49,631 nucleotides of DNA, taken from Ilumatobacteraceae bacterium (GTDB lineage Bacteria > Actinomycetota > Acidimicrobiia > Acidimicrobiales > Ilumatobacteraceae). Shown in pieces: positions 111-1,661 of this stretch (position 1 is the first letter of the stretch; every line of letters starts with the position of its first letter). The notes under the pieces were generated by a model, which was given only the letters and a program-made list of their open reading frames with translations, had not been told where the DNA came from and did no database searches. Location: contig JAEMQQ010000009.1 in NCBI GenBank assembly GCA_016463775.1, forward strand, positions 1 to 49,631, read 5' to 3'. Both the position numbers and the translations under genes were made by a program.

Positions 111-527
111 ATGTTCGTAGGTGTTCACGAACGACAACTTGACCCGAAAGGTCGTGTTGCCTTGCCCGCCGCGTTTCGCCCGCGTCTTGAGCCTCGTTGC
201 TACCTTGCCCTCGGCGCTGACAAATGTGTCGACATCCTCACGGCTGAGGCGTTCGAACAAGTGGCCAACGACATGATGGAAAAAGTTCGTCGCGGCGAAG
301 TCGATCGCACCCAACAGCGCGCACTGGCCGCCAGTGCAGTGGAGGTCACGATCGATGCCCAAGGCCGCATCAACATCGACGAAAAGTTGCGCGCGTACGC
401 CGGTCTCACGTTGGACTCCAAAGTCGTCATCAGCGGGTCGTTCGACCGTTGCGAAATCTGGGATCCGACGCGTCATCAGCGCGTCAGCGATGCAGGCACC
501 GCCCAGATGGCTGGCGGTGCGTCGTGA
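111..527 (+). CDS. mraZ: Transcriptional regulator MraZ
   Basis: MraZ is a ring-forming DNA-binding protein of the AbrB-like fold and usually the first gene of the dcw cluster, where it represses the operon. The 138-residue product has the two tandem MraZ half-domains, each with the DxxxR signature: DPKGRVALPAAFR near residues 11-23 and DAQGRINIDEKLR near 81-93. The ATG at 111 is chosen because it gives the canonical MFxG N-terminus and follows an AGGAG-like ribosome site at 99-103. The reading frame is open upstream, but that part covers the promoter and operator. The gene is followed by a 180-base structured gap before rsmH. Confidence 0.93.
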   Translation: MFVGVHERQLDPKGRVALPAAFRPRLEPRCYLALGADKCVDILTAEAFEQVANDMMEKVRRGEVDRTQQRALAASAVEVTIDAQGRINIDEKLRAYAGLTLDSKVVISGSFDRCEIWDPTRHQRVSDAGTAQMAGGAS

Positions 528-556: not shown

Positions 557-595
557 GGAACGCTTCGACTTGACCACTGGTCACGTTGAAGTTCC
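557..595 (+). ncRNA. Upstream hairpin (P0) in the mraZ-rsmH leader
   Basis: An imperfect hairpin: GGAA (557-560) pairs with TTCC (592-595), CTTC (563-566) with GAAG (588-591), AC (568-569) with GT (585-586), and TGACC (571-575) with GGTCA (579-583) around an ACT loop. Its 3' arm (590-595) is shared with the long helix described next, so the outer pairs of the two structures compete. Function is inferred only. Confidence 0.5.
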
Positions 596-719
596 GCTCA
601 TCAGCAGTCTCCCGGTCAGCAAAGATGGACAGCTCCAACTCCGCCCGCTGTCTGCCTCGCTATCCGGGGAGAAATCCCGGAGGCACATGTTGGCCGGGGG
701 GCTGCTGATGAGCGGGACT
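590..719 (+). ncRNA. Candidate structured RNA leader of rsmH: 32-bp helix closing a three-way junction
   Basis: Bases 590-621 pair with 688-719 along 32 consecutive positions, 27 Watson-Crick and 5 G-U, with no mismatch or bulge. Inside the closed region are two further perfect stems: GACAGC (628-633) with GCTGTC (647-652), and TCCGGGG (663-669) with TCCCGGA (675-681, one G-U). The long helix includes the G-run before the rsmH ATG and the ATG itself (708-710), while the GGAGG at 679-683 overlaps the last small stem. This would hide the rsmH translation start. An RNA motif upstream of actinobacterial mraW genes has been described; I cannot tell whether this belongs to it. The frame of RsmH is also open back to a TTG at 570, so a longer coding start is the main alternative. 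Confidence 0.6.
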
Positions 720-1661
720 CACGAACCAGTGATGCTCACCGAAATCGTCGAATTGTTTGTGCCGATTCCCAACGGAGTGTTGCTTGATGCAACGCTCGGG
801 ATGGCCGGACACGCAACGGCGATTCTCCGGCGACATCAGGGTCTGCAGGTAGTGGGAATCGACCGAGACATGATGGCAATCACCCACGCCCACGCGACCA
901 AAGCCACGCTCGGGGCCACCGACGCGGCCCGGTTCGGTGCGGTGCACGCCCGCTTCGACGGTGCCGTCGATGCGTTGCGCAATTTGGGCATCGAGCACCT
1001 GTCTGGTGCCCTGTTCGACCTCGGTGTGTCTTCTCCGCAACTCGACATCGCCGAACGTGGCTTTTCGTATCGCAACGACGCCCCGCTCGATATGCGCATG
1101 GATCGCAGCGAGGGTGTTTCGGCCTGGCACGTGGTGAATGAATATGACGCCGGCACCATCACCGATATTTTGCAGCGCAACGCCGACGAGCGTTTCGCCA
1201 AGCGCATCGCCCAGGCGATCGTTGCCGCACGCCCGATTGCCACCACCACCCAATTGGCCGCGGTGGTCACTGCAGCGATCCCGGCTGCGACACGTCGCAC
1301 GGGCGGACATCCCGCCAAGCGCACCTTTCAGGCGATTCGCATCGAGGTAAATGCCGAACTTGATATTTTGCCGAACGCGTTACGCGACGTGATGTCGTTG
1401 ATCGTGCCCGGCGGCCGGATTGCGGTATTGGCGTACCACAGCGGCGAAGACCGCATCGTGAAGCAGATCTTGCGCGACGCCGAAACCGACACGACGCGCC
1501 CCAACATCGCCACCCCCTTTGCCCATCCGTCGCGCACGGCCCCCCGTGCGTGGCGAAAAGTGCGGGTGGCGAAACAGCCGGGTGCCGATGAGCAAGCGCG
1601 CAACCCACGCGCGTCGTCGGCACGTTTGCGCGCGATGGAACGTTGTGCGGTGGCTGCATGA
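708..1661 (+). CDS. rsmH: 16S rRNA m4C1402 methyltransferase RsmH (MraW)
   Basis: RsmH transfers a methyl group from S-adenosylmethionine to N4 of C1402 in the 16S rRNA decoding centre. From the ATG at 708 the product is 317 residues and begins MSGTHEPVML, the usual family start. The SAM-binding motif DATLGMAGH is at 27-35 (the family usually has GG where MA-G is here), followed by FDLGVSSPQLD. The late motif reads YHSGEDRIVK, where most relatives have L instead of G. In-frame alternatives are ATG 687, with GGAGG three bases upstream, and TTG 570. It overlaps the next gene by four bases (ATGA), suggesting coupled translation. The start lies inside the predicted long helix. Confidence 0.93.
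   Translation: MSGTHEPVMLTEIVELFVPIPNGVLLDATLGMAGHATAILRRHQGLQVVGIDRDMMAITHAHATKATLGATDAARFGAVHARFDGAVDALRNLGIEHLSGALFDLGVSSPQLDIAERGFSYRNDAPLDMRMDRSEGVSAWHVVNEYDAGTITDILQRNADERFAKRIAQAIVAARPIATTTQLAAVVTAAIPAATRRTGGHPAKRTFQAIRIEVNAELDILPNALRDVMSLIVPGGRIAVLAYHSGEDRIVKQILRDAETDTTRPNIATPFAHPSRTAPRAWRKVRVAKQPGADEQARNPRASSARLRAMERCAVAA

Follow-up and report, generated by a model that had tools for sequence, protein, structure and literature searches.

A structured RNA between mraZ and rsmH, conserved across Acidimicrobiia, and its possible role as a gate on rsmH translation

In E. coli, RNase III cuts leader and intergenic hairpins at rpsO-pnp and rnc, where a long duplex lies in or before an operon gene with a ribosome site nearby. 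Autoregulation of pnp and rnc is cited in PMC3997798. PMC5089854 describes a structured RNA in the dcw transcript of Rhodobacter sphaeroides, the UpsM/extended dcw leader, which lies ahead of the cluster and has an sRNA among its features. In the actinobacterium C. glutamicum, cutting of the mraZ mRNA by RNase III is reported to be needed for cell division (Maeda 2016, as cited in PMC7761207 and PMC8247434). The mraW RNA motif of Actinomycetales (Rfam RF01746) was described by Weinberg 2010 (PMC2864571); it lies straight after mraZ and before rsmH/mraW, on the same strand.

We found an element in this same place in a 49,631-nt stretch of DNA from an Ilumatobacteraceae bacterium (assembly GCA_016463775.1, contig JAEMQQ010000009.1), the whole of which we refer to as the window (Table 1). 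Like mraW RNA, the element has a long closing helix and a C-rich apical loop; it differs in forming a three-way junction where mraW RNA has an inner hairpin, and in the loop itself, which is CUCCNCC as against the ACUUCCCC read off nine mraW loci. With the E. coli hairpins it shares the long duplex close to a ribosome site, but throughout a class its loop sequences do not vary, and its cutting is a proposal. As in R. sphaeroides, a structured RNA would be part of the dcw transcript, although there it precedes the cluster, includes an sRNA and belongs to a different lineage.

Table 1. Features of the element and its surroundings, in window positions.
Feature	Position	Strand	Evidence or remark
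Whole RNA element	588..720	+	Matched by model R1 at 127 bits; occurs once in the genome
P1, 5' strand	590..621	+	32 pairs, five G-U; two-sided changes at 22/32 pairs
P1, 3' strand, with rsmH ribosome site and start	688..719	+	Pairing, covariation, opening energy
P2 hairpin	624..655	+	Here paired 628-633/647-652; fold; family P2 covaries
L2 motif CTCCGCC, P2 loop	639..645	+	Best conserved segment in the family (CUCCNCC in 78/80)
P3 hairpin, with CGGGGAGAAATCCCG	663..681	+	Missing from some divergent members
G-run, likely Shine-Dalgarno of rsmH	696..701	+	Duplex with the anti-SD, -8.8 kcal/mol
rsmH (mraW)	708..1661	+	Start ATG 708 inside P1 3' strand
mraZ	111..527	+	60 nt upstream of the element
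Upstream hairpin	557..595	+	Conserved in the genus only

The closing helix, P1, is a run of consecutive standard pairs without a bulge and, as the first-pass annotation had read from the letters alone, the G-U pairs are its sole departures from a perfect inverted repeat. No inverted repeat of the window with arms within 200 nt is longer; the second longest (2534-2559 / 2712-2737, 26 nt, 85%) lies within an ftsI-like ORF. The minimum free energy of 528-740 is -108.7 kcal/mol, compared with -72.3 +/- 4.8 kcal/mol for 200 dinucleotide shuffles, none of which folds as well (z -7.53). Of the two inner stems that the annotation called perfect, that in P2 is so, but the stem 663-669/675-681 in P3 contains one G-U pair. 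The register of P2 in the window species is slightly off the family consensus, which pairs 624-628 with 651-655 and adds an inner part. The annotation's upstream hairpin, lying directly before P1 and able in principle to compete with its base, does fold (-22 kcal/mol, z -2.6), but it is weaker than the main fold and by inspection its sequence is conserved no further than the window's genus, and competition of the kind proposed is thus no feature of the family.

Of 61 relatives spread over the order, 30 have DNA that matches positions 540-740. When 22 elements aligned by sequence alone (alignment A1) were set against the structure of the first-pass annotation, 27 of its 45 pairs were found to have two-sided, pairing-preserving changes, where shuffles lead one to expect 13.1 and reach this number in 0 of 500 cases; the covariation score is 0.359, against 0.168 for shuffled and at most 0.115 for slid alignments. 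Under the consensus structure, 96.6% of the cells are paired. Alignment A3, whose 81 members include a few found by similarity besides those chosen by the model, was fitted to the model and is for that reason biased towards structure; two-sided changes appear in 41 of its 42 consensus pairs, and its score is 0.516 (0.215 shuffled, at most 0.138 slid). Within P1, G-U cells outnumber A-C cells by 194 to 52 (the cells, like the loci counted throughout, are phylogenetically non-independent), an indication that the + strand RNA, rather than the DNA or the other strand, is the selected molecule. Compensatory changes, whose lack in related genomes would have spoken against the first-pass annotation, are abundant. 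Covariation and the G-U excess bear out the earlier suggestion of selection on RNA and, by these comparative measures, the element is a structured RNA under selection.

Searching 397 genomes of the order Acidimicrobiales with model R1, we found the element in 258 genomes and in 143 of 203 genera. Model R2, built from 81 members, was searched in a sample of 376 genomes of the phylum Actinomycetota and gave 21 positive genomes, all of the class Acidimicrobiia; 8 of 8 sampled genomes from other orders of that class carry the element, as do 0 of the ~340 genomes from outside it. Both large scans were strictly filtered and can miss weak members, so the absences set lower bounds on the range. The bacteria concerned are mostly uncultured, and the evidence on the element is comparative throughout: the named records with it are MAGs of Ilumatobacteraceae, Acidimicrobiales and Acidimicrobiia, including Candidatus Microthrix, and the isolate Acidiferrimicrobium sp. 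IK. Eight MAG records named Bifidobacterium breve or Acidobacteria (L112, L142 and L181; L139, L153, L165, L175 and L176) also carry it; their adjoining mraZ and rsmH are Acidimicrobiia-like, and they are probably misnamed. A Methanosarcinaceae record hit by a pattern gave no model match and was discarded. In the window's own genome, a second listed match is the same palindrome on the opposite strand. One genome (L014, G021) has a mraZ-rsmH gap of ~150 nt with no recognizable element or long helix, which is, by comparison with its element-bearing congener L258, a recent loss.

Nothing credible was found for the element in Rfam, either at the gathering thresholds or at E<=10. The scan with the mraW model that the earlier reading had called for came back empty: RF01746 has 0 matches in the window at gathering and none at E<=10 in 480-780, 0 in the 61 relatives, and none at E<=10 in 10 divergent loci. 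Nor is there a credible match of R1 or R2 in the nine mraW loci, where the best values (R1, 20.6 bits and E 0.019 at one locus; R2, E 2 at another) carry the rough E-values of home-made models. With no credible match of any of the three models, homology between the two RNAs stays unproven; the mraW RNA is nevertheless the nearest known kind, by a clear analogy of place and C-rich loop, and neither kind is a member under the other's models. Our literature searches, from which subscription papers were mostly out of reach, found no report of the element. On the sequence comparisons it is a new RNA family, conserved across the class Acidimicrobiia and missing from Rfam 15, which joins strong covariation to one fixed place in one of the best-conserved bacterial gene clusters and provides, in another class, a counterpart to the long-orphan mraW RNA.

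Wherever the sequence of a locus extends far enough, the element is located between mraZ and rsmH and on the strand of these genes, at 0 to 349 nt from rsmH, an rRNA methyltransferase gene that we take to open the downstream dcw cluster. A constant position behind the opening gene of a long operon, together with conserved hairpin loops, would suit a transcription attenuator or antitermination element within the dcw operon. No terminator or promoter was found on the + strand of the mraZ-rsmH gap, however; that strand has no U-tract terminator, no boxA-like sequence was seen, and we regard control of this kind as distinctly improbable.

We surveyed start codons in 134 distinct elements, 131 of which have rsmH in the fetched DNA. 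The P1 3' strand contains an AUG or GUG in the frame of RsmH at 61 of the 131 loci; at 10 it begins a short ORF that ends in an ATGA-type overlap with the rsmH start, at 15 another ORF starts there, and at 45 it has no start codon. The RsmH frame is thus used in 61 of the 86 loci with a start in this fixed place, where one third would be expected (p ~1e-12, for loci that are not independent). Pairing with the anti-SD upstream of these starts is -7.9 kcal/mol, compared with -5.5 kcal/mol in composition-matched random sequence. The first-pass annotation's reading that the start codon is buried holds for the window's genus, but not as a universal property, as it applies to about half of the loci. 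The 45 loci with no start in P1 and the variable distance to rsmH imply that burying a start is not the sole function.

The same survey bears on the possibility that the region encodes an extended RsmH with its start at TTG 570 or ATG 687. The frame is open in the window species and its genus, but at 31 loci a stop interrupts it once the element has begun, TTG 570 varies even within the genus (it is GCG in several species), and covariation coexists with single-base indels in the joining regions. The element is hence not in general an N-terminal extension of RsmH; we reject that explanation for the family, and a coding role is hardly credible. In one relative rsmH itself has a single in-frame TGA (G053:C115:2100-3011), from a sequencing error or because it is a pseudogene.

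Nine relatives that lack the element near rsmH were examined. In five of them (L017, L019, L022, L026 and L030) the mraZ stop and the rsmH start share four bases; in a sixth the overlap is a few bases longer, and three have gaps or other starts. These overlaps suggest that the element replaces direct coupling, and the two arrangements look like alternatives.

P1 spans both the G-run and ATG 708, as had been noted from the sequence, and the computed energies agree with burial of this start. The cost of opening the ribosome footprint is 44.9 kcal/mol at ATG 708, and the median for 20 relatives with a start in P1 is 41.8 kcal/mol; in eight element-less relatives the cost is 9.7-21.8 kcal/mol, and the starts of long ORFs in the window have a median of 17.4 kcal/mol (a crude, ATG-only figure). 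In the window's genus, a conserved helix over the Shine-Dalgarno sequence and start codon gives the element the hallmark of an RBS-sequestering leader. The model energies indicate that a P1 this strong should block initiation at equilibrium, and its stability would call for cutting, active opening or a race with folding. A metabolite riboswitch, in which small-molecule binding by the three-way junction controls translation of rsmH, would fit the wide conservation, the invariant loop and the aptamer-like complexity of the fold. Yet conservation is centered on the apical loop, not the junction, some members have no P3, and P1 is far too stable for equilibrium switching, such that a simple ligand equilibrium should not open it; the single gene context suggests no ligand. 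A riboswitch is in our estimate improbable.

Judging from the conserved fold and start site, we think it rather probable that the element is a cis-acting RNA in which P1 gates rsmH translation and a factor reads L2. The element would act in cis within the mraZ-rsmH gap of the dcw transcript, with P1 closing the three-way junction and its 3' strand carrying the G-rich ribosome site and the start codon of either rsmH or, as some genomes have it, a short ORF that overlaps the rsmH start with its stop. With P1 closed, ribosomes would be barred from starting there, and RsmH would be made only when P1 has not yet formed, has been opened, or has been cut. L2 would most likely be the docking site of a trans-acting factor, probably a protein, that sets the gate. 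We infer repression by P1 in the cell, binding of a factor to L2 and, as the outcome, control of the dose of rsmH relative to mraZ.

Cutting could also be the point of the element. In a purely operon-processing hairpin, RNase III would cut P1 within the joint transcript of mraZ and rsmH, which would give the two messages separate fates and make the ribosome site of rsmH accessible. P1 is long and continuous, a 28-32 bp duplex where at least ~22 bp of continuous duplex is characteristic of RNase III-processed hairpins; the window's genome has an RNase III gene (215 bits), and the C. glutamicum precedent concerns the mraZ mRNA of another actinobacterium. This cutting leaves the invariant L2 and the conserved P3 unexplained, however, and the C. 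glutamicum cut is said to fall in the mraZ coding region, outside the gap. We consider a processing hairpin a serious possibility, short of an even chance. It may be no alternative to a translational gate but its opening step, for which RNase III is a good candidate because the duplex has sufficient length, the genome encodes the enzyme, and mraZ mRNA is one of its targets in C. glutamicum.

For a gate on rsmH, the choice of reader turns on the P2 loop, which is more conserved than the helix. L2 is CUCCNCC in 78 of 80 distinct members, with one or two of the last letters varying in three of them, a count that excludes 80 loci fetched by a loop-containing pattern, although the model favors the loop as well. 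Such invariance in a C-rich, single-stranded loop suggests that a partner binds it. L2 is kept where P3 is missing (L241, L263, L265, L266 and L269); pairing of L2 with P3 (CUCC/GGAG) looked attractive, and was dropped since such members exist.

RsmH methylates C1402 of 16S rRNA. The commonest loop, ACUCCGCCCG, is identical at 9 of 10 positions to the 16S sequence around C1402, ACACCGCCCG, which was checked in relatives; 9/10 identity to 1396-1405 is found in most members, and several vary at the equivalents of G1401 and C1402. L2 could thus imitate this site, with free RsmH binding its own leader and holding the gate closed, and the element is found before rsmH only. Against such autogenous control, the U of CUCC, the best conserved differing letter, is A in 16S, and a short C-rich loop is easily matched by chance. 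It is further weakened because RsmH requires the 30S subunit rather than naked 16S rRNA (PMC5053481) and the mitochondrial homolog METTL15 contacts RNA through the backbone, not bases (PMC10828496). We regard it as unlikely, and its extension to the class-wide family, RsmH shutting its own ribosome site by binding an imitation of its 16S target, as a long shot. If true, it would tie the maturation of ribosomes to expression where the division cluster begins, and two actinobacterial lineages, counting the one with mraW RNA, would then have different RNA gates in the same place. Why actinobacteria place a structured RNA between mraZ and an rRNA methyltransferase gene, and what reads the loop, are questions that can be tested.

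A hammerhead-like string in P1, CUGAUGAG, was also considered; that reading was dropped because GAUGAG alone is kept. In one genome (L051, G008:C93:7526-7556), the P2-loop half of the element, apart from the rest of the fold, recurs after another gene as a second partial copy with ~90% identity over 28 nt.
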